Below, piece after piece: positions 3,559-42,303 of a DNA stretch of 42,307 nt (position 1 is its first letter; each line of letters opens with the position of its first letter). Where the stretch lies: contig CAKTLJ010000016.1 in the NCBI GenBank assembly GCA_934572535.1, positions 1-42,307 of the forward strand. Direction: 5' to 3'. The position numbers and the translations under genes are program-made. The notes below the pieces were generated by a model. It did not search any database and had not been told where the DNA came from. It was given only the letters and a program-made list of their open reading frames with translations. The DNA comes from an uncultured Eubacteriales bacterium (lineage in GTDB: Bacteria > Bacillota > Clostridia > Oscillospirales > Oscillospiraceae).

Positions 3559-4763
3559 TGGGCGCACCCCCTCAGTTCATCCAAGGTCCCCTGGGTGTTT
3601 CGATGGACGGGGACGCCGCGCTCGGTCAGGTCCTCCACGCTCATCTCCAGGCCCAGGATCATGGCCTTGTCCAGGTCCTCCCAGACCAGGCGGCGCAGCT
3701 CCTCCACCCCGTCGAAGTCGCGGTTCGGCTCCATGTAGTCGGCCAGGTAGAGGATCTTGTCAAAGGTCGTCATGCCGGGCTTGCCGGTGGTGTGGCAGAA
3801 GATGGCGTTGTACACGTCGTCAGGCTCCCCGAAGACGTACTTGGCCATGGCCGCGCCGGTCTTGGAGTGGAGGAGCTTGGGCGACTGCCGCTCCAGCTCG
3901 TCCAGCTCGATGCCGTATTTCTCACAGGTCGCCACCTGGGGCTCCAGCTCCCAATACTTGGTGCAGTCGTGGAGGATGGCGGCCCGGCGGGCCTTTTCCG
4001 GGTCCACGCCCCAGAACTTGGCCAGCGCCACGGCGGTCTCCTCCGCGCCCCGGATGTGGGGCAGGCGCTTGGCCTTCACCATGGAGTAGGAGACGGCCCG
4101 GAGGTGCTTGTCGCTCAGATGCTTTAAGTCGGCCTTGGTGCCGAACAGGCCCTCCTTCAGGATGTAGCCGTAGACCGGCAGCCAGAGGTACTGGGCCGGG
4201 TCCACGTTGCCGCCGGTCCACTCGGAGGCCAGCATCCGTCTCAGATCCCGGGAGGCGATCTCGTGGATCTTGGGCAGGTTCACGATGGTGGTCCGGGCAT
4301 GGAAGCGCTCGGACAGGTAGCTGCTCTGCTCCTCAAACATCTCCCCCGTGTCGTCGTGGCTGCGGGAAAAGCCCGCCACCCCGGCGTACTGGAAGATGCG
4401 CTCGGGCTGGTACCAGTTCTGCACCGTCAGGAACATGTCGGTGCCCATGAGCAGCCACAGCTCGTCGTCGGGGAAGGTCTCGTGCAGCTCCTCCACGGTG
4501 TCGGCCGTGTAGCTCCGGCCCTCCCGCTTCAGCTCCAGGTCGGAGGCCTCCGCCCGGGGGCCGATGCCGTCGGCCATGAGCCGGGCCATTTCCAGGCGCT
4601 GTTGGGGGGAAGCCGCGTCGGTGGGCAGCCCCTTGTGGGGCGGTTCACGGTCGGGGATGATGATGAGCCGGTCCAGACCCAGCTGGTCCATAGCGGCCTT
4701 GGCCGCCTCCATGTGTCCCAGATGCGGCGGGTCAAAGGTCCCGCCATAAATTCCGATTTTCAC
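3555..4763 (-). CDS. nadD-yqeK: Fused nicotinate-nucleotide adenylyltransferase / YqeK HD hydrolase
   Basis: A 402-residue two-domain protein. Residues 1-200 are NadD, which adenylates NaMN for NAD synthesis: GIYGGTFDPPHLGHMEAA with HLGH at 14-17, PPHKG near 41-45, SYTADTVEEL near 84-93 and the ribose/phosphate loop SRDLRRML near 171-178. Residues 212-402 are YqeK-like HD domain: RLPHIRGAEETAVALAKFWG, AAILHDCTKYW with His265-Asp266, SKTGAAMAKYVFG, and FDKILYLADYMEPNRDF. YqeK enzymes hydrolyse Ap4A symmetrically. In Bacillus the two are separate adjacent genes; here they share one frame with no internal stop. It starts with GTG behind AGGTGG and overlaps the lcp gene by 4 bp. Confidence 0.93.
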   Translation of the reverse strand: MKIGIYGGTFDPPHLGHMEAAKAAMDQLGLDRLIIIPDREPPHKGLPTDAASPQQRLEMARLMADGIGPRAEASDLELKREGRSYTADTVEELHETFPDDELWLLMGTDMFLTVQNWYQPERIFQYAGVAGFSRSHDDTGEMFEEQSSYLSERFHARTTIVNLPKIHEIASRDLRRMLASEWTGGNVDPAQYLWLPVYGYILKEGLFGTKADLKHLSDKHLRAVSYSMVKAKRLPHIRGAEETAVALAKFWGVDPEKARRAAILHDCTKYWELEPQVATCEKYGIELDELERQSPKLLHSKTGAAMAKYVFGEPDDVYNAIFCHTTGKPGMTTFDKILYLADYMEPNRDFDGVEELRRLVWEDLDKAMILGLEMSVEDLTERGVPVHRNTQGTLDELRGCAQ

Positions 4764-30027: not shown

Positions 30028-32313
30028 ATGAAAAAACGATCCTTTTCCCGCTTCCTGGCTGTGCTGGTGAGCCTGCTCATCCTGACGCAGTCGCTTTGCC
30101 TGACGGCCCTTGCCGCAGGGGAAGAAAAGACCGTGCTCATTCCCTCCAATAGCACCAAAGAAGAAGTGAATCAAATTCTGACGAAACAACTTCTTGGAGA
30201 GAACGCAGAAACTGTAGCATGGGAGTATCAGTGCGAAGGTACAAGTCGCATCTACACTAAAAACACCGCTTGGGGCTCCATTGCAGGTTTCACGAGTTCA
30301 ACGAAAACGCTGGGTATCACCACAACATACACCCACCCCGCTCTGGCAGCAAACGCCGATGGAGCGTATCAGGTGCGTGTTGCCAACGACCCCTCTAAGG
30401 CATACACCATCAACAAAATTGCCAAGCAGCAGAGTTCCATCACGCCGAAGGAAAACCCCACCGTCAACCTGGTCTATAAAGAGGACCAGAGCGTAGATTA
30501 CAGCAACATCAACGCAAGGGTATTCGACGCGGTCGTAGCATCCACCACCCCGGCGGGTCTGACGGCGGAAAACGTGACCATCGAGTATTACGCTACAGCT
30601 ACCACTGGTTCGCTGGGCGATCTTGGCAAGAACTGGGCACCGCTGACCGGCGGTAAGGTCAATACTCTGACCTACCCCGCCATTTCCGAGGGTACGCACC
30701 AGGTACGCATCACCTTCCCCGGCAACGCTGCGTATGCAAAGACCGTCATTGAGGCAACGCTCAATGTCACCGGCCGCGACCCGATGACGTTCGACTTGAA
30801 CGAAACACCTTACAATGTCGGTCTGGTCTTTACCGCCGAGCAGGCCATTGACTACGACCAGACCGCCAAGGCGATTTATGGCGCGGTCGTAAAGTCCACC
30901 ACCCCGGAGGGTCTGACGGCGGATGATATGACCATCGAGTACAATGCCGCAACGACGAACTTGACCAAAGTTTGGGTCCCGCTGGAAGGCGGCCGGGTTA
31001 ATTTGATCAATTACCCCGCCATTTCCGAGGGTACGCACCAGGTACGCATCACCTTCCCCGGCAACAATGAATTTGCGCCTGCCAGCGTGACCGCAACCGT
31101 TACGGTAACGGATAACCGCATTCCCAGCGCGGTCGTGCTCAAGGACGGCGTGTCCTTCCCCTACAACCAGGAGGTCGCCGCCATGAAGCAGGCGGTTCTG
31201 GACAACGTGGTCGATTGGGAGAATTCGACGCTTCCCGCGAAGGATACCCTGACGATCAACAACTTCACCTTCGCGTATGAAGCGCAGCTTTCGCTGCTCG
31301 ATGGTCTCAGCGGTGATATCGCGGACGGCGTCCTGAAACAGTTCCTGAACAATCCGAAGAAGGAATACGTTCCCTTCGAGGGCGAGAAGTATACCCTTGG
31401 TAATCAAATCCTTGGTCAGTACCCGCAGATCGGCGCGGGGGAGCAGAAGATCCGCGTGACCTACAAAGGCAACGCCGACTATAAGCCCAGCGCCGCGGCA
31501 GACGGCACGATCACCGTCAACAAGGCGAAGGTCAAGGTCAGCGTGAAGAGCACCAGCCTGACCGTCAGCGAAGCCAAGAACGGTCTGCATCTGGTCACCA
31601 CGACCCCGGTCGATGACTTTAATATCTATGTGATCTACGCCGGTGTCACCAGAAACATGACGAGCGCGCTCTATCTGGAGCTGCCCGCAAAGTACACGGA
31701 GAACAGTCCGGCGCTGAAGGCGATCGACATGACCTTGAAAGCCCTCGGTCAGAAGACGCTGACGCAGATGATGCAGGACGGCATCACGGTCGGCGAGCTG
31801 CGCGCGCTGCTGCTCAACACCAAGATCATCGACGCACTGGGGCAGATCGGCATTGACACCGGCGCGCTGGGTCAGCTGGTCAAGGTCATTGACAAGCTGC
31901 CTGCGGTCGGGGACGATATCCGCATCGCCTTCGGTCAGCCCAACCACGCGGGCATGTATTCCGTGACCGCCGTGACTGAGAACAAGAACTACAACACCGG
32001 CGTGGGCGTGGGCGCGCTGGTCCTCAAGGCGGACAAGGCCAAGCTGGAATGGAATCAGGACATCGGCAAGAAGATCTCCGCCGCCGACGCAAAGACCGCC
32101 GATTTCGGCGCAACGCTGAACATGGACGGCAAGGCGGTTGCCGATCAGAGCAGCGTGCGGGTGCTGTACTCCGGCTTCACCAGCAGGTGGAAGCCCTATT
32201 CCAGCACCACCACACCTCCCACGGAACCGGGCCGTTACGCCATGACGGTGGTGGTCCTGGGCGGCGACTACCAGGCCTCCCCCATCAGCCGTTCCTTCCA
32301 AATCACACGGTAA
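30028..32313 (+). CDS. Large secreted protein with Ig-like repeats, function unknown
   Basis: 761 residues. Signal peptide 1-30 (RFLAVLVSLLILTQSLCLTALA-A). Two 113-residue Ig-like beta repeats at about 135-250 and 250-360 end in the same sentence, YPAISEGTHQVRITFPGN. A third related module ends GAGEQKIRVTYKGNADYKPS near 490. The C-terminal half has a helical block (TLKALGQKTLTQMMQDGITV...KVIDKLPAVGDDIRIAF) between beta-rich segments and a final Ig-like unit (EPGRYAMTVVVLGGDYQASP). No SLH, LPXTG or C-terminal helix is visible, so anchoring is unclear. I do not recognise a family. Base use is less G+C-rich than the flanking housekeeping genes. Confidence 0.85.
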   Translation: MKKRSFSRFLAVLVSLLILTQSLCLTALAAGEEKTVLIPSNSTKEEVNQILTKQLLGENAETVAWEYQCEGTSRIYTKNTAWGSIAGFTSSTKTLGITTTYTHPALAANADGAYQVRVANDPSKAYTINKIAKQQSSITPKENPTVNLVYKEDQSVDYSNINARVFDAVVASTTPAGLTAENVTIEYYATATTGSLGDLGKNWAPLTGGKVNTLTYPAISEGTHQVRITFPGNAAYAKTVIEATLNVTGRDPMTFDLNETPYNVGLVFTAEQAIDYDQTAKAIYGAVVKSTTPEGLTADDMTIEYNAATTNLTKVWVPLEGGRVNLINYPAISEGTHQVRITFPGNNEFAPASVTATVTVTDNRIPSAVVLKDGVSFPYNQEVAAMKQAVLDNVVDWENSTLPAKDTLTINNFTFAYEAQLSLLDGLSGDIADGVLKQFLNNPKKEYVPFEGEKYTLGNQILGQYPQIGAGEQKIRVTYKGNADYKPSAAADGTITVNKAKVKVSVKSTSLTVSEAKNGLHLVTTTPVDDFNIYVIYAGVTRNMTSALYLELPAKYTENSPALKAIDMTLKALGQKTLTQMMQDGITVGELRALLLNTKIIDALGQIGIDTGALGQLVKVIDKLPAVGDDIRIAFGQPNHAGMYSVTAVTENKNYNTGVGVGALVLKADKAKLEWNQDIGKKISAADAKTADFGATLNMDGKAVADQSSVRVLYSGFTSRWKPYSSTTTPPTEPGRYAMTVVVLGGDYQASPISRSFQITR

Positions 32314-32331
32314 ATCCTTCCCAAAACGCGA

Positions 32332-32363
32332 AACAGCCGTAGTTCGATCGAACTACGGCTGTT
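32332..32363. terminator. Perfect 32-bp palindrome after the secreted protein gene
   Basis: AACAGCCGTAGTTCGA and its exact complement with no spacer, 18 bp after the stop codon. Likely terminator hairpin despite a poor T-tract. Confidence 0.7.
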
Positions 32364-32394
32364 CGCTTGTCGGCCTTTGGCGACAGAAAAGAGA

Positions 32395-32430
32395 CGACTC
32401 CGCCAGCGTATGCAGTACGCGGCGGAGTCG
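32395..32430. repeat. Strong hairpin immediately before the tandem elements
   Basis: CGACTCCGCC then GCGTA, 5-nt loop, TACGC and GGCGGAGTCG; a 15-bp stem with one bulge. No gene is attached. It may be a second terminator insulating the downstream module. Confidence 0.6.
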
Positions 32431-32441
32431 CTTTCCGAGCG

Positions 32442-32471
32442 TTGACAAAGTTTGACGCAATATGCTAAACT
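32442..32471 (+). promoter_or_regulatory. Toxin-mRNA promoter, copy 1
   Basis: TTGACA, 18 bp ending in an extended TGC, then TAAACT. Predicted start near 32478. Confidence 0.7.
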
Positions 32472-32547
32472 GGAACACAAGGACACTGTTACTTTAGTGG
32501 TCAGGTCACCTATCCCAGCGCAGTTGATGCGAAGGGAGGTGATGCCG

Positions 32548-32622
32548 ATGTGGAAAAAAGTGTTGCAGTCTTTACTGCTGACAGCAATTCTGCTGCTCGC
32601 GCTTTCCATAAAGGCGTGCTGA
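32548..32622 (+). CDS. 24-residue hydrophobic peptide, candidate type I toxin, copy 1
   Basis: Encodes MWKKVLQSLLLTAILLL-ALSIKAC: basic N-terminus, one short membrane helix, terminal Cys. The ribosome site GGGAGG is eight bases before the ATG at 32548. Another ATG at 32542 would add Met-Pro, but its spacing is too tight. The site lies in a stable hairpin (32506-32542: TCACCT with AGGTGA, CCC with GGG, CGC with GCG), so translation should be low unless it is opened. The stop codon is inside the left arm of the terminator, as in TxpA-type toxins. No homologue is recognised by eye; toxicity is inferred only. Confidence 0.7.
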   Translation: MWKKVLQSLLLTAILLLALSIKAC

Positions 32623-32649
32623 CCACTCGACGGCACTCAAGTGGTCAGC
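32618..32649. terminator. Shared terminator stem, copy 1
   Basis: GCTGACCACT and AGTGGTCAGC around a 12-nt loop, located where the convergent transcripts meet. T-tracts are short on both sides. Confidence 0.6.
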
Positions 32650-32709
32650 TGATATAACATATTAGCAATCAAATCGGGGGCCTGGCTACAAGTAACAGTG
32701 TCCCCTTTT
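32618..32709 (-). ncRNA. Candidate antisense (antitoxin) RNA, copy 1
   Basis: A roughly 90-nt minus-strand RNA is expected from the consensus promoter at 32716-32744. It begins just before GGACACTGTTACTT and runs into the terminator that overlaps the 3' end and stop codon of the toxin mRNA. If the terminator is leaky on this strand, the RNA would also cover the toxin reading frame and ribosome site. Ends are estimates. Confidence 0.6.
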
Positions 32710-32715
32710 GCCTTT

Positions 32716-32744
32716 ATTATATCCAGACGTTCCGACTTTGTCAA
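32716..32744 (-). promoter_or_regulatory. Perfect consensus promoter for the antisense RNA, copy 1
   Basis: Minus strand TTGACA, 17 bp, TATAAT: six of six in both boxes. It faces the toxin promoter. Confidence 0.85.
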
Positions 32745-32774
32745 GACGAGAAATGACGGAGCGACGGAGCGTTA

Positions 32775-32804
32775 TTGACAAAGTTTGACGCAATGTGCTA
32801 AACT
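32775..32804 (+). promoter_or_regulatory. Toxin-mRNA promoter, copy 2
   Basis: TTGACA, 18 bp ending in TGC, TAAACT; differs from copy 1 only in one spacer base (ATGTGC against ATATGC). Confidence 0.7.
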
Positions 32805-32880
32805 GGAACACAAGGACACTGTTACTTTAGTGGTCAGGTCACCCACCCCAGCGCAGTTGATGCGAAGGGAGGTGATGCCG

Positions 32881-32955
32881 ATGTGGAAAAAAGTGTTGCA
32901 GTCTTTACTGCTGACAGCAATTCTGCTGCTCGCGCTTTCCACAAAAGCGTGCTGA
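32881..32955 (+). CDS. 24-residue hydrophobic peptide, candidate type I toxin, copy 2
   Basis: Identical to copy 1 except Thr for Ile near the end (ALSTKAC). Same GGGAGG ribosome site with eight-base spacing, same stop inside the terminator arm. The leader hairpin keeps TCACC/GGTGA and CCC/GGG pairs but loses one inner pair. The terminator is stronger than in copy 1, with seven T after the stem. Retaining the reading frame with a conservative change argues that the peptide is under selection, but one substitution is thin evidence. Confidence 0.7.
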   Translation: MWKKVLQSLLLTAILLLALSTKAC

Positions 32956-32992
32956 CCACTCGACGGCAATCGAATGGTCAGCTAGTTTTTTT
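32951..32992 (+). terminator. Toxin terminator, copy 2
   Basis: GCTGACCACTCG and CGAATGGTCAGC with one mismatch, then TAGTTTTTTT. Confidence 0.8.
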
Positions 32993-33042
32993 AATTAGAT
33001 GATTTCTTAAGGGCCTGGCTACAAGTAACAGTGTCCTCTTTT
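32951..33042 (-). ncRNA. Candidate antisense (antitoxin) RNA, copy 2
   Basis: Equivalent of the copy 1 RNA, from the promoter at 33049-33077 to the shared stem. Its middle part differs from copy 1, which could make each antisense RNA partly specific for its own partner. Ends are estimates. Confidence 0.6.
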
Positions 33043-33048
33043 GTCTTT

Positions 33049-33077
33049 ATTATATCCAGGCGTTCCGACTTTGTCAA
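33049..33077 (-). promoter_or_regulatory. Perfect consensus promoter for the antisense RNA, copy 2
   Basis: Minus strand TTGACA, 17 bp, TATAAT. Confidence 0.85.
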
Positions 33078-33167
33078 GTTCAGAAACGAGATTGTCTCAA
33101 CCGATCCTAGAGTGGTGTCGGCCTGGGACTCCATCCCTACTATTAGAGTATCTAGTATCTAATTTGC

Positions 33168-33785
33168 TTACGAAAGAATGAACAATACAACGAGAATGAT
33201 GGCGAAGATGAGGACAGTACGAATAGCACATTTAAAAAATTCATATGCCATAGTCATGGAGTCCACTTTTTTATTTATTATACTCATATTTGAATATGTG
33301 GAATTACGGATTTTCAAAAAAAGAAGCGTCTTGTATTCTCTGGCTCCGTTATACAAAAAAGAGGGAACAGCTGGCCAATCATAGCCCTCCTTAGCTTTAG
33401 TTAATACCTTGGTTGCATGATAAACGGAAAAAGACAAATAAACCACAATTATACTGACGAAGATGAATGCAGTTGCTGTAAAAAAGATAGGATACGTATT
33501 CAGTCCTAATATGACATCTTTTAAAAAACTTAAAAGGATTGTTATCGCGACAGAAAATGTTCCGATTAGTATAGATGCCTTGTTCTCTACTGTTTTTCGA
33601 CGATCTTCCTCACGAGCAGAAAAATCTCGTGCAGCTTGTATGGCCAGATCTATATTCTCGTCGCCCAGAAAAGAACATTTTTCCAAAGATATTGAAAGAT
33701 CCTTTTTGTCTGAATCTTTCGCTTCCATTACTGGCCAAAAGAAGTCTCTTATGCGTCTCAACTTTCCTTTTGTATCTTCTTTCAT
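33168..33785 (-). CDS. Membrane protein of the graspetide locus, function unknown
   Basis: 205 residues. The soluble N-terminal 65 are rich in charged residues. Helix 1 (about 70-88, ASILIGTFSVAITILLSFL) is preceded by the amphipathic RRKTVENK; helix 2 is about 98-122; a loop of about 60 residues follows, and helix 3 is about 186-205, ending the protein. The charged-helix-then-NKAS pattern resembles small multi-helix effectors of the SLATT/2TM type, but I cannot assign a family. It overlaps the ATP-grasp stop by 4 bp (ATGA), so it is translationally coupled. Possible roles are export, immunity or a membrane effector. Strongly AT-rich, unlike neighbours outside the island, which suggests transfer. 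Confidence 0.75.
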   Translation of the reverse strand: MKEDTKGKLRRIRDFFWPVMEAKDSDKKDLSISLEKCSFLGDENIDLAIQAARDFSAREEDRRKTVENKASILIGTFSVAITILLSFLKDVILGLNTYPIFFTATAFIFVSIIVVYLSFSVYHATKVLTKAKEGYDWPAVPSFLYNGAREYKTLLFLKIRNSTYSNMSIINKKVDSMTMAYEFFKCAIRTVLIFAIILVVLFILS

Positions 33786-34756
33786 TTGGATACCTCTCGT
33801 AATAGGCTCACGATATGCTTGCTAATAGGATAACCCAAACGATTTTCAATCCAGGCCCACTGTCCGTTCGGATTGCACTCCAGGAAAATATATTCTCCGT
33901 CCGTATCTAGAATTAGGTCAATTGCTGAATATGTAAGCTCGAATCGTTGCGTTAGAGAAATTACTCTCTTTTGAATTTCACTTGGCAAGTCAATCTTATT
34001 ATGCGTCAAATACCCTCGAGCTTTTCTCCAGTCCACCTTTCCATCTTCGCTATTGGGGGAATCAATACTTGCAGCAAATACACTAGAACCTACTACAATA
34101 CAACGGATATCACAAGTTTTATGAATATTTTCCTGAAGATAAATAGGAAATGCCTCCACCCGTTCGGATGTGAAGTTTTCTGGATTTACCTTGCTGGTAA
34201 AGATTACTTTGTGACCGTCGGCATATCCCATATTCCCAGATCGGATAGGTTTAATGATACAATCCCCTTGAAATGCCTCCATGGTTTGTTTAAGCAATTT
34301 GTGCTCATTTGCTATGACAGATCTCGGAATTTTAAAACCTATTTCCTGCGCGATCTGCAACTGGTATAATTTGTTCTCGGCCTCCCGAATTTTATATACA
34401 TCATTGATCCAGTAAACGTTCCGCAAAGACTTATAAATTCCCTCTAGCAAGGTAGCCAATTCAAGTCTCAGGTAATTCCGTTCATAACTATCTAATTTAA
34501 GGATGTTCTCTAATGTAGCAATCTCAGGCCGTCTGAAATACACAGAGGAAATGTCGGAAAGAGATAGGGATTCCTGTTTGATTGTATCGTATAGAATGTA
34601 GTTCCCATTATCAACATCGAATTGAACATGGACAATCGTAGGAATATCTTCTGTATTAAGACGATAATAAGGGCATTTTTGAGCTTTGAGTTCTCGCACA
34701 ATAAAATCGACTGTTATATCTTGTTTATTAGTGATAAGTAGAACCATCTTCGTCAT
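33782..34756 (-). CDS. ATP-grasp ligase of the MvdD/graspetide-synthase type
   Basis: About 324 residues. These enzymes phosphorylate Asp/Glu side chains of a precursor and close omega-ester or omega-amide rings with Thr/Ser or Lys. Seen in order: VLLITNKQDITVDFIVREL at the N-terminus, SSVYFRRPEIA near 70-80, VYWINDVYKIREAENKLYQL near 114-133 with the W-x-N-D and K-x-x-Q-L pattern of this family, GFKIPRSVIAN, CIIKPIRSGNMGY (ATP-binding Lys), DIRCIVVGSSVFAASI, and metal-binding AIDLILDTDGEYIFLECNPNG near 279-298 followed by QWAWIE. The start at 34756 overlaps the end of the precursor gene by 29 bp; an ATG at 34747 is also possible. AT-rich. Confidence 0.88.
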   Translation of the reverse strand: MTKMVLLITNKQDITVDFIVRELKAQKCPYYRLNTEDIPTIVHVQFDVDNGNYILYDTIKQESLSLSDISSVYFRRPEIATLENILKLDSYERNYLRLELATLLEGIYKSLRNVYWINDVYKIREAENKLYQLQIAQEIGFKIPRSVIANEHKLLKQTMEAFQGDCIIKPIRSGNMGYADGHKVIFTSKVNPENFTSERVEAFPIYLQENIHKTCDIRCIVVGSSVFAASIDSPNSEDGKVDWRKARGYLTHNKIDLPSEIQKRVISLTQRFELTYSAIDLILDTDGEYIFLECNPNGQWAWIENRLGYPISKHIVSLLREVSK

Positions 34757-34997
34757 CCCGTTCTCTTTCGACAAAAGTCTTCGAGTACAACTCATTCATA
34801 TCATCGTCCTGTTCACTACAGGCTTCCGTTTTTGTCATTAGCTCACTAGCTGACTTGGACGCTTCGATGAATAAGGCAAATATATGACCATGCTTTACAA
34901 CGTTCATATCTTGCGCTCTATCGTAGAAAAAAGACGGAGTAGCGCACTTCGTGCTACGAGTGGAAATGTTGTCCAGTATGATTGGGCGGTTACTCAT
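34728..34997 (-). CDS. Graspetide-type precursor peptide with two core repeats
   Basis: 89 residues. The leader (1-53) contains PSFFYDRAQDM near 21-31 and a hydrophobic stretch, GHIFALFIEASKSASELM. The C-terminal core has two copies of one pattern, 17 residues apart: K56-T57-x4-E62-x-D64-D65-D66 (KTEACSEQDDD) and K73-T74-x4-E79-x-D81-D82-E83 (KTFVERERDDED). The tail is GSTYH. A Thr/Lys donor followed by clustered Glu/Asp acceptors is what ATP-grasp macrocyclases use. The start ATG at 34997 follows AGAAAGAGAG. The ligase starts inside its 3' end. No precursor family name is claimed. Confidence 0.85.
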   Translation of the reverse strand: MSNRPIILDNISTRSTKCATPSFFYDRAQDMNVVKHGHIFALFIEASKSASELMTKTEACSEQDDDMNELYSKTFVERERDDEDGSTYH

Positions 34998-35028
34998 AAT
35001 ATACACTCTCTTTCTATTTTTAAGTGGG

Positions 35029-35066
35029 CGCAAAGCCCCTAGGGATCAGTCCCCAGGGGCTTTGCG
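35029..35066. terminator. Hairpin between S-layer gene and graspetide operon
   Basis: CGCAAAGCCCCT and AGGGGCTTTGCG around a 14-nt loop. There is no U-tract on the minus strand, so termination of the S-layer transcript may be partial. Confidence 0.65.
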
Positions 35067-35103
35067 TTTGTCGAAATCTTACCTAAATTAGATTCAGGGG
35101 AGA

Positions 35104-37845
35104 TTACTGCTCCATGTTGGAGTCAGAGTCAACGAAGATAGCAACGATCTCGTTGTTCTGGTTATCATTGTCGAAGACAACAACAATATTCTTGTGGCCC
35201 TTAACTGCGTCGAATTCATTCACGCCGATGTTGGAACCAGCCTTGTCATCGCTAGAGTTGACATAAACGATCTTCACGTCCTTGTCAACAGCCTTAGTAA
35301 CCAGAGAAGCGACACCCTCATAGATCTTGCTATCGCCGTTATAGTTAACAGCAGTGTAGTAGCTCAGGATCTTGCCCTGCTCATCGTACTCATCCACATA
35401 AGCGGCGACTGCACCAGCGCAGTTAGCAACGTTAACGTTCAGAGTAGCCTCGTTGTTACCCTCGGCCTTGGCATAACGAGCATACACCTTGATGTTGGAG
35501 GTGCTATAGATATCATCTGCGCTCACATCAAAGGAAACCAGATCGCCTTCCTTCAGATAAGTATCGCCGGACCCCTCAATCAGAACGGTCTTCTGAGTGG
35601 ACTCATCCAGGTCAACGGTGTAAGAGGTGTAGGTATCGCCATTCACCTTCACATCGCCGTTCTCAGCGGAGACAATGCCGTAAACAGTGTCGGAAGAGGA
35701 GCTGTTGGGCTTGCTGGTCAGAGTCACATAAGCAGCAACGACCTTGCTGTTATCCAGAATAACAGTGGTATCATACTCCACAGCCGTATTCTTATTGCCA
35801 GACACGGTGATGGTGTCCAGGTTGCGTGCAGTGTACTTGGTAAACTCGCCGCCCTTGTTCACGAAGAGAACTGCGTCAGCGGAAACAACAGCAGAACCAT
35901 CACTATAAGTAAAGGTCTTAGTCTTCTCATTGTAAACGGTGTTCACCGTAACAGGAGTGCCAGCAGAAATGGTAGTGGTTGCAGGCTTGTGGACCTCGGT
36001 GATCTTGATCTTGCCGTTGGAGGTCTCAGTGTACTTGATCAGAGCGCCAGCAACAACATCATCCTTGGTAACAGCAGCACCACCATTGGAAACCTTAGAG
36101 TCCTTGTGCAGGACATACTTGCCCTCAGTGCCATCGGCCTTCATGATCTTCACTTCCAGAGGATCAAAGCCAGTGTCCAGCTTACCCTTATTGTTATCCT
36201 CAACAACAGCGTAGTTCTTAGCGCCGTCGGAGGTCTGCTCGGCAGCATAAACAAGGCCGCCAATCAGATAGAGGGTGTAAGTCTCATCCAGCTGGTTCTG
36301 GAAGTCAGCTACGAAATCAGAGCAGATGCTCTTAGAAGCCAGCTGTGCGATATCGTAGCTCTTCTTGTCCAGGCTAACCTTCTCAGTGCCCTTGAAGCTA
36401 GTCAGCTTGCCGGAAACGGTATCAGCCTTGGTCACAATGCTATAAGCATCGGAATTGGTAGCATCCTTCTTGTACAGGGTGGTAACTGCCACGATGTCGT
36501 CCTTAGCAACACCCTTATAGATCTCGTTGTCCTCGATCTTGATGGAGCCAATGCCATTGTTGATGGACACCTTGTCGGAACTGACAGCGGTAACACGAGC
36601 CAGCTTAGTCTCAACGACATAAGCCTTTACAATCTTACCCTTGCTGTTGCAGACGAACTTAATGGTGTCGGCGGAAGTAGCCTTCAGCTTGGCAATCATT
36701 GCGTCAGCAACTTCATCGGCAGACATATCTGCGGTCGCAGTTGCGCTCTCTGCACCATAGTTATAGTTGATGTAAAGATCACCCTCATCGATGCCAGCCA
36801 CGTCATAATTCTTATCGCCGAAACGAACGGTGCCGTCTTCCTTCTGCTTCTGCAGGTCGTTCTTGGTGATGTTGTAGACCTTGGTCTCGCCGGTCACATA
36901 GACGCCATAGATGGTATCCTTGGTGTCAGGAACATCCTTAGTGCCGCCGGTGGCATCCTTAAACAGGACCTTAACTTCTTCGCCAATATACTTCAGGTCA
37001 AAGTTGTACTTGAAGTTTGCTTCGGTCTTCTTCTTTTCGGAATCGATAGAACCGGTAACCTGAATCTCGCCATCGTCCAGCTTGCACACATCGGAGTTGC
37101 CATCGAAGGTGCCGGTGAAGGTCTTAGCCTCGTACTTGTCTTCCAGCAGGGTGATCTTGGTCTTGCCGTCCAGACCGACCTTGTCCTGGAGCACCAGCTT
37201 GGAGACCAGCTGGCCGTTCTCGGAGACCAGGTTGTACTTATACTCGACCTCGTAGGCGTTCAGAGCGTTCCACAGCATCTGAGCCGCGTTGTCACGGGAC
37301 AGAGCCTTGGAGGGGTCCATGCCAGCCAGGTCAGCGTACAGGCCCTTGGCGGAAGCGTCCACGTTGACGTTCACTTCCCAGGGAGCGCCGACGTAGCCCT
37401 GGTTGTCAGCATTGTAGCCCAGCGCGATCAGCAGCATCTTGGCAAACTGGGAGCCGGTCACGTTGCCGTTCGGGTCGAACTTGCCGCCGCCAATACCGGC
37501 CACGATGCCCTGGCTCACGCAGGACTCGATGTACTTCTCAGCCCAGTGGCCCTTGGTGTCGGTGAAGGTTGCCTTGGCGTTGGTACCCAGGACGGGGTCC
37601 TTGCCGCCGTTCAGCGCCACGCAGATCATCTTGCAAGCTTCTGCGCGGGTGATGGTCCCCTCGGGCTTATAGGAGCCGTCAGGATAACCCTTGATGATGC
37701 TCAGCGCTTCGCAAGCATCAACTGCCTCGGTGTTCTTGATCTTGGACTGATCGTTGAACGCCGCTGCGCCTGCGCCCACGACCATGACGGACAGCATCAT
37801 AGCCATGCAGAGCACCAGGCTAAGAACCTTTTTCAGGTTTCTCAT
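35104..37845 (-). CDS. S-layer-type surface protein with N-terminal SLH domains
   Basis: 913 residues. Signal peptide 1-28 (MRNLKKVLSLVLCMAMMLSV then MVVGAGAAA). Three SLH modules at about 30-220: ALSIIKGYPDGSYKPEGTIT, TFTDTKGHWAEKYIESCVSQ plus GIVAGIGGGKFDPNGNVTGS, and YADLAGMDPSKALSRDNAAQ. The remaining 690 residues are Asp/Lys/Thr/Val-rich beta domains without a recognised family. SLH modules bind pyruvylated secondary wall polymers; the size, strong promoter, long leader and AGGGAGG site fit an abundant surface-layer protein. Codon use is less G+C-rich than the housekeeping genes. The start is the ATG at 37845; upstream codons do not resemble a signal peptide. Confidence 0.9.
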   Translation of the reverse strand: MRNLKKVLSLVLCMAMMLSVMVVGAGAAAFNDQSKIKNTEAVDACEALSIIKGYPDGSYKPEGTITRAEACKMICVALNGGKDPVLGTNAKATFTDTKGHWAEKYIESCVSQGIVAGIGGGKFDPNGNVTGSQFAKMLLIALGYNADNQGYVGAPWEVNVNVDASAKGLYADLAGMDPSKALSRDNAAQMLWNALNAYEVEYKYNLVSENGQLVSKLVLQDKVGLDGKTKITLLEDKYEAKTFTGTFDGNSDVCKLDDGEIQVTGSIDSEKKKTEANFKYNFDLKYIGEEVKVLFKDATGGTKDVPDTKDTIYGVYVTGETKVYNITKNDLQKQKEDGTVRFGDKNYDVAGIDEGDLYINYNYGAESATATADMSADEVADAMIAKLKATSADTIKFVCNSKGKIVKAYVVETKLARVTAVSSDKVSINNGIGSIKIEDNEIYKGVAKDDIVAVTTLYKKDATNSDAYSIVTKADTVSGKLTSFKGTEKVSLDKKSYDIAQLASKSICSDFVADFQNQLDETYTLYLIGGLVYAAEQTSDGAKNYAVVEDNNKGKLDTGFDPLEVKIMKADGTEGKYVLHKDSKVSNGGAAVTKDDVVAGALIKYTETSNGKIKITEVHKPATTTISAGTPVTVNTVYNEKTKTFTYSDGSAVVSADAVLFVNKGGEFTKYTARNLDTITVSGNKNTAVEYDTTVILDNSKVVAAYVTLTSKPNSSSSDTVYGIVSAENGDVKVNGDTYTSYTVDLDESTQKTVLIEGSGDTYLKEGDLVSFDVSADDIYSTSNIKVYARYAKAEGNNEATLNVNVANCAGAVAAYVDEYDEQGKILSYYTAVNYNGDSKIYEGVASLVTKAVDKDVKIVYVNSSDDKAGSNIGVNEFDAVKGHKNIVVVFDNDNQNNEIVAIFVDSDSNMEQ

Positions 37846-41875: not shown

Positions 41876-41951
41876 TGGTGACCCAGCGGGGATTCGAACC
41901 CCGGACACCCTGCTTAAAAGGCAGGTGCTCTGCCGACTGAGCTACTGGGTC
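41876..41951 (-). tRNA. tRNA-Lys(TTT)
   Basis: 76 nt with encoded CCA. Acceptor GACCCAG/CTGGGTC, anticodon loop CTTTTAA in the stem CTGCC..AGCAG, T-arm GGGGTTCGAACCCC. Confidence 0.95.
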
Positions 41952-41981
41952 ATCTCTCTATGTCAAGTTGAAGAATAAGTA

Positions 41982-42056
41982 TGGCTGGGGTGGCCGGACT
42001 CGAACCAGCGAATGCGGGAGTCAAAGTCCCGTGCCTTACCACTTGGCGACACCCCA
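41982..42056 (-). tRNA. tRNA-Gln(TTG)
   Basis: 75 nt with encoded CCA. Acceptor TGGGGTG/CACCCCA, anticodon loop CTTTGAC in the stem GGGA..TCCC, T-arm with GGTTCGAGTCC. Confidence 0.95.
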
Positions 42057-42075
42057 TTGTGAAGGTGTTAATAGA

Positions 42076-42109
42076 AGAGAGAGCCGGAACCGCCGCTCCG
42101 GCTCTCTCT
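42076..42109. repeat. Hairpin between tRNA-His and tRNA-Gln
   Basis: Perfect 13-bp stem AGAGAGAGCCGGA/TCCGGCTCTCTCT with an 8-nt loop, 20 bp before tRNA-Gln. It may be an RNase III-type processing site or a partial terminator in the tRNA transcript. Confidence 0.6.
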
Positions 42110-42116
42110 CGAGATC

Positions 42117-42194
42117 TGGGGTGGGTAAAGGGATTCGAACCCTCGACACCCGGAACCACAATCCGGTGCTCTAACCAACTGAGCTATACCCACC
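42117..42194 (-). tRNA. tRNA-His(GTG)
   Basis: 78 nt with the His-specific extra 5' G opposite the discriminator C, encoded CCA, and anticodon loop TTGTGGT in the stem CCGGA..TCCGG. Confidence 0.95.
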
Positions 42195-42226
42195 AAATAT
42201 TCAATTGCTAAGCAGTGAAGAGAAAA

Positions 42227-42303
<77 letters not shown>

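Follow-up and report, generated by a model that had tools for sequence, protein, structure and literature searches.

Thuringinin-type graspetide loci (precursor cluster 13 and membrane cluster 18 of Makarova 2022) are the closest described systems to the locus reported here, whose layout is not new, since repeat precursors accompanied by an uncharacterised membrane protein are already in print for this group (in a section of PMC8939145). These loci combine Thr/Glu/Asp core repeats with a single ATP-grasp enzyme and the membrane protein, mostly without a known transporter, and a role in transport was proposed by Makarova 2022 because the membrane family occurs mostly in such transporter-free loci (same section of PMC8939145). 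The figure legend of PMC12291112 gives thuringinin two ester links per repeat. Among the matches listed, titles and abstract openings tied no thuringinin-type locus to phage defence, subscription papers and bioRxiv-only preprints lying mostly outside that search. Microviridin-type and other graspetide ligases (AMdnB, CdnC, 5ig8, 5ig9, 9bou) are sequence relatives over the whole of the ligase discussed below, and the systems to which they belong have other core spacing and other leaders. Their products have been described as protease inhibitors (in part of PMC8939145).

A second point of reference comes from immune systems that signal with nucleotides. In Pycsar, cyclic pyrimidines activate PycTM, which disrupts the membrane (part of PMC11224242), and in Panoptes constitutively present cyclic nucleotides restrain the membrane effector OptE until phage proteins remove the signal (part of PMC12657218). 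The window analysed here, a stretch of 42,307 nucleotides from an uncultured Eubacteriales bacterium, encodes on its minus strand at 33168-34997, as read from the open reading frames, a precursor, an MvdC/MvdD-type ATP-grasp macrocyclase and a three-helix membrane protein. It shows the thuringinin-type features as that group has been described, with several Thr/Glu/Asp core repeats and a single ligase, and we infer that its proteins belong to clusters 13 and 18, the match having been made through the description of those clusters. As in Pycsar (PycC cyclase with PycTM), a small-molecule-making enzyme lies beside a membrane protein of three long helices that appears distantly homologous to PycTM, but the cyclase is replaced by a precursor and a peptide macrocyclase; no PycC pyrimidine cyclase stands beside the effector, the overlapping set consisting of precursor, ligase and membrane protein only. 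The likeness to Panoptes (OptS with OptE) is one of model, with no homology claimed, and that system differs in its nucleotide signal and its S-2TMbeta effector. On sequence grounds we propose that the window carries a thuringinin-type graspetide locus which would most likely act as an intracellular conflict (anti-phage) module, a reading to which we assign a probability of about 0.52.

The original prediction had described a three-gene graspetide-type locus, and its account of frames, overlaps and AT-richness holds throughout. All three predicted frames are open, namely those of the precursor (34728..34997, 89 aa, recognised by its reading frame and core modules), the macrocyclase (33782..34756, 324 aa, recognised by Pfam, NCBIfam and PDB matches) and the membrane protein (33168..33785, 205 aa, a distant PycTM relative at family level and the putative effector), and the coordinates give overlaps of 29 bp between precursor and ligase and 4 bp between ligase and membrane gene. 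The GC content is 42.6 % in the precursor, 38.7 % in the ligase and 35.8 % in the membrane gene, against a mean of 65.4 % over positions 1-30000, where none of 141 overlapping segments of 1,830 nt falls below 59.2 %; the two genes flanking the trio are intermediate (52 and 58 %), so that the drop is partly shared with the surroundings. Between the precursor and its upstream neighbour gene sits a terminator-like hairpin core (35048..35061, strand unassigned), found solely as a consensus pattern match on the plus strand, the stem of which appears longer in the sequence. A search of 32000-35300 returned no Rfam family at cutoff, a His-leader remaining sub-threshold (E 0.16, 26.8 bits against 49). 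An empty site could not be demonstrated because the neighbouring surface-protein gene had relatives of just 31-44 % identity at the thresholds used, in 1 of 391 and 3 of 87 genomes.

The ligase frame runs as far as 33782, with its start at 34756 or, like several homologues, at 34747 (321 aa). It matches PF21068 (3.1e-13) and the RimK-like domain PF08443 (8.5e-13), and its best NCBIfam model is TIGR04187, 'ATP-grasp ribosomal peptide maturase' (2.4e-76). The scores of 256.9 bits for TIGR04187 (cutoff 350), 216.8 for TIGR04185 (425) and 198.6 for TIGR04184 (475) all lie below the curated cutoffs, which places the enzyme with the graspetide ligases but outside these three subfamilies. The RimK family TIGR00768 gives 71.7 bits, also below its cutoff, so the earlier description of the ligase as MvdD-like is upheld by the HMM comparison, in which MvdC/MvdD-type maturase models score best and RimK does not; the grouping with RimK that the original prediction had named as refuting it is thus not seen. 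The closest PDB entry is the microviridin-type AMdnB 7m4s (9.9e-43), followed by 5ig9, 5ig8 and CdnC. W-I-N-D, K-L-Y-Q-L and ECNPNG are all present, bearing out the predicted W-x-N-D, K-x-x-Q-L and ECNPNG elements; an alignment of 21 sequences shows W113, N115, K126, Q129, E290, N292, P293, N294 and G295 without exception, but D116 and C291 as variable positions. A protein search with 2,061 candidates yielded 1,057 ligase homologues at E<=1e-3.

As is characteristic of the graspetide class, the precursor adjoins the ligase and possesses a conserved leader and a core rich in Thr/Ser and Glu/Asp. In the window, P-I-I-L-D lies close to the N terminus and the modules TKTEACSEQDD and SKTFVERERDD lie toward the C terminus; two modules of the form [ST]x[ST]x4[ED]x[DE][DE] are reached in just 5 of 20,000 shuffles of the precursor's own residues. 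Relatives were collected by a genome scan, in which 448 stretches encoded a relative and the best 80 were retained, and by a virus scan that gave 19 loci. The clade studied comprises L001-L085, with a ligase identity of 34-53 %, and L086-L099 (26-31 %) serve as outgroup. A precursor-like frame with T/S-K-T...E-x-D-D modules was found by pattern upstream of the ligase in 74 of the 85 clade loci, and in two of the 11 loci without such a match, L032 and L034, degenerate modules can be recognised by eye; the precursor is thus conserved beside homologous ligases, the original prediction having named the opposite outcome as one that would refute it. Counted exactly, 75 precursors (window included) hold 225 modules, against a mean of 1.7 and a maximum of 5 in 500 composition shuffles, a figure that is partly circular for the relatives, because their precursors had been chosen beforehand by a looser T/S-E/D pattern, but not for the window. 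Most precursors (67 of 75) carry 2-4 modules, with none in L066 and L085, and the commonest residues spell L-E-L-x-T-K-T-x-V-x-x-E-x-D-D; P-h-h occurs in 70 of the 75.

The membrane gene is the constant companion of this pair. Searched with a membrane profile, it lies directly downstream of the ligase in 82 of 85 clade loci, and 34 of these 82 genes came from outside the training set of the profile. Of the three exceptions, L048 has its membrane gene upstream, and L019 and L053 are cut by contig ends 5 and 73 nt past the ligase match. The outgroup has the membrane gene in only one of 14 loci (L096), two of the 14 being cut. In all 38 genomes searched with the profile, which had been picked as ligase carriers, the best membrane-family match falls within the ligase locus, and 34 of them hold no other match at 1e-5; the unit is therefore one of precursor, ligase and membrane protein. 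More distantly, L101 and L102, from the order of Cerasibacillus (ligase identity 28-29 %), have a membrane relative downstream (3.5e-8 and 4.4e-5). Judged from these sequences, the trio appears nearly invariant, with the membrane protein as a near-obligate third part. Since the precursor modules are rarely reached by shuffling and the trio recurs across phyla, the data support a graspetide-type locus in the window that is real rather than the product of chance.

Several variants of this arrangement were observed. The Desulfoscipio locus (L048:4537-4996 and 3889-4492) shows two precursor-like frames with the membrane gene upstream, i.e., the trio in rearranged order. Four membrane proteins (L039:5952-7637, L049:5873-7153, L052:4037-5188 and L062:5948-7153) are extended at the C terminus by some 150-330 residues. 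In the L010 genome an incomplete further copy of the membrane family, interrupted by two stops (G1101:C1:46624-46995), lies some 11 kb away from the intact locus and is perhaps a decayed earlier copy.

What the membrane protein might do was approached through a set of 49 members, made up of 48 of the 74 membrane ORFs listed together with the window protein. The original prediction of a three-helix protein agrees with three hydrophobic segments and with an AlphaFold model of three long helices (42-96, 100-132 and 148-204; mean pLDDT 91.1, pTM 0.83). Pfam and NCBIfam gave no coherent match for the 49 members. When these were scanned singly against PADLOC, three PycTM models matched most often (18, 13 and 11 of 49 at E<=0.05; best 1.8e-7), followed by the CorA-like and CBASS 2TM effector families with 2-3 members each; unrelated models also matched weakly, namely Pfam DUF2207_C in 9 of 49 (best 3.9e-4) and PADLOC CorA-like in 3 of 49 (best 2.2e-4). 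The window protein alone matched PycTM models weakly (0.011 and 0.04). For comparison at family level, 12 of 18 loci found with one PycTM model in 17 of 321 gammaproteobacterial-class genomes were used. HHalign related the membrane family to PycTM at 87.8 % over 147 columns and 89.1 % over 144, pairing E-x-K with D-x-K ahead of the first membrane helix and N-x-K ahead of the last; the reversed profile gave 1.3 % and seven column shuffles at most 0.3 %, these controls being artificial profiles rather than natural membrane families of similar topology. A PycTM protein encoded next to a cyclase-like gene was modelled at modest quality (pLDDT 70) with helices 6-56, 62-93 and 131-181, similar in length and order to those predicted for the window protein. 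Foldseek returned no match at 1e-3, and the PycTM profile itself found no PDB entry with E <0.2. Taken as a family, the membrane proteins would thus be distant relatives of PycTM, a kinship that is weak for the window protein alone.

Within the comparison set, L108 and L109 adjoin, by reading, a nucleotide-cyclase-like gene. In L110, L111, L112 and L117 the PycTM-like domain continues into a C-terminal fusion partner of about 300 residues, by appearance a propeller or repeat domain, an arrangement unlike the usual Pycsar layout.

The genes beside the relatives point in a similar direction. Up to two flanking genes per side were taken from 38 of the 80 genome loci, picked for long contigs (135 proteins), and compared with 139 proteins called in the same way from 38 stretches placed at round coordinates elsewhere on the same contigs, proteins above 700 aa and ORFs below 90 aa being dropped from both sets. 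At E<=1e-15 the flanks matched 288 PADLOC models and the controls 10, counts which overstate the difference because the models are redundant; individual flank proteins were therefore inspected. Five of ten hand-picked large flank genes match PADLOC at 1e-30, these 5 proteins alone giving 65 family matches, and five match none, the matches being adjoining GajA and GajB, which follow the trio of L075, GajB (L078), a type I methyltransferase (L076) and PDC-S39 (L054). The nearest downstream gene matches at 1e-15 in 3 of the first 10 loci of the set, and not in 7, as an Avs1a/LmuA-type protein (L001), a 93-aa type III methyltransferase piece (L002) and PDC-S05 (L021); PDC entries are themselves predictions. 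Among the best 25 of 96 Pfam families in the flanks are phage integrase (4), RadC (3), ThsB_TIR (3), Methylase_S (2), GmrSD (2) and UvrD (2), whereas glycosyl transferases and ABC ATPases are the most frequent in the controls (best 25 of 154 families). For the relatives, these matches indicate loci set among apparent defence genes of the Gabija, restriction-modification and Thoeris-type TIR kinds, in islands that hold other cargo as well. The window's own neighbours are, by reading, surface-protein genes and a tRNA cluster near the window end (Lys, Gln, His and Arg; 41876-42303, minus strand), with no obvious defence island.

The distribution is likewise patchy. Of 299 genomes from one order, among them the query genome, 3 carry the ligase; relatives of it are found on 56 of 72,556 plasmid records (all ligase groups, 1e-20) and on 2 of 50,697 phage records at 1e-10. 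Opened individually, one of these two phage records, a Leptospira phage, and three large plasmids each have the membrane gene adjoining the ligase (profile E 1.3e-60 to 1.4e-52). The DNA of a Vibrio relative had no E. coli match at 1e-5. Patchy, mobile spread together with defence neighbours is the pattern that a horizontally moving defence gene set would leave.

We tentatively propose the following mechanism for an intracellular anti-phage module. The ligase would bind the precursor leader and ester-link Thr/Ser hydroxyls to Glu/Asp carboxylates, closing probably two rings in each module, or four for the window peptide as a whole. As the trio encodes neither exporter nor peptidase, the ringed peptide would remain inside the cell, where its presence, or its loss, could set the state of the membrane protein much as cyclic nucleotides control PycTM or the Panoptes effector OptE. 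Phage attack would alter the peptide pool, the membrane protein would damage the inner membrane and the infected cell would cease growth. Either restraint by the ringed peptide, as in Panoptes, or activation, as in Pycsar, would fit the sequence. The narrower proposal, in which a multiply ringed ribosomal peptide replaces the cyclic nucleotide of Pycsar, Panoptes or CBASS as a signal that gates a PycTM-like membrane effector, is less likely than not. Infection might lift a restraint, e.g., if a phage protease or loss of ATP depleted the ringed peptide, or the ringed peptide might be produced upon infection and open the effector. A protease as the sensor step is speculation, suggested by the activity of characterised graspetides as protease inhibitors. 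If this model is true, a published graspetide group, so far read as a source of secreted natural products, would instead consist of immune modules acting inside the cell, and the signals used in immunity would include a RiPP besides nucleotides. The model would account for a core trio without its own exporter or peptidase and for a membrane gene in every clade locus with remaining sequence, and it makes the role of the membrane proteins in thuringinin-type loci directly testable.

A classical secreted graspetide, acting as a multivalent protease inhibitor or competition peptide whose leader is cut by host enzymes with its export or the protection of its producer falling to the membrane protein, is the strongest competitor, albeit an unlikely one. 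It accords with the peptide transport proposed by Makarova 2022 for the thuringinin-specific membrane family and with the statement that all graspetides characterised so far are protease inhibitors (both in sections of PMC8939145), and a Gly-Gly/Ala/Ser pair at residues 21 to 80, found in 35 of 75 precursors, is in keeping with it. However, no consistent transporter match emerged from the 49 membrane members, the best 25 of 51 and 25 of 28 families containing scattered weak ones (SLAC1 in 2 of 49 at 0.024, a cytosine permease model in one at 0.0028 and CrcB in one at 0.016). The membrane protein has three helices without an energy-coupling domain, the trio lacks a peptidase, and both the PycTM kinship and the defence genes beside relatives' loci weigh against secretion. 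Given the gene order, the constant membrane protein and the lack of export genes, intracellular control of an effector fits better. The original prediction was right in calling the locus graspetide-type but missed the PycTM kinship and left maturation, export or immunity to the membrane protein or to host functions; the evidence points away from such a part for the membrane protein, as the protein is constant and PycTM-related and its relatives' loci lie among defence genes.

Less probable still is an addiction module with no phage-specific role, in which the membrane protein would be a toxin, the ringed precursor its antitoxin and post-segregational killing the means by which the module is kept. 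The tightly overlapping genes, the mobile carriers, the PycTM-like membrane protein and the presence, beside the trio, of two type I toxin-antitoxin-like cassettes in tandem would all suit such a module, but a simple antidote would come at a high cost if it needed an ATP-dependent macrocyclase and repeated modules, usually 2-4 of them. Addiction modules frequently double as defence systems, and the distinction between the two is weak for that reason. That the trio is a remnant of horizontal transfer, decayed or otherwise without current function, agrees with its low GC relative to the chromosome but is very improbable, for the three frames are intact, the conserved ligase positions are retained and a ligase 91 % identical to that of the window (P0002) represents 37 member sequences.

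The neighbouring cassettes, which fall within 32442-33089 of the window, matched no Rfam family above cutoff and have a layout that we take to be reminiscent of TxpA/RatA. The two copies lie in tandem 333 bp apart and are closely alike, over 209 nt at 96 % and 79 nt at 91 %. Each comprises a sigma-70-like promoter, a GGAGG start site and a 24-aa hydrophobic peptide ending in KAC, directly followed by a hairpin, with a minus-strand terminator score in the second copy; the opposing promoter is a perfect TTGACA-17-TATAAT.
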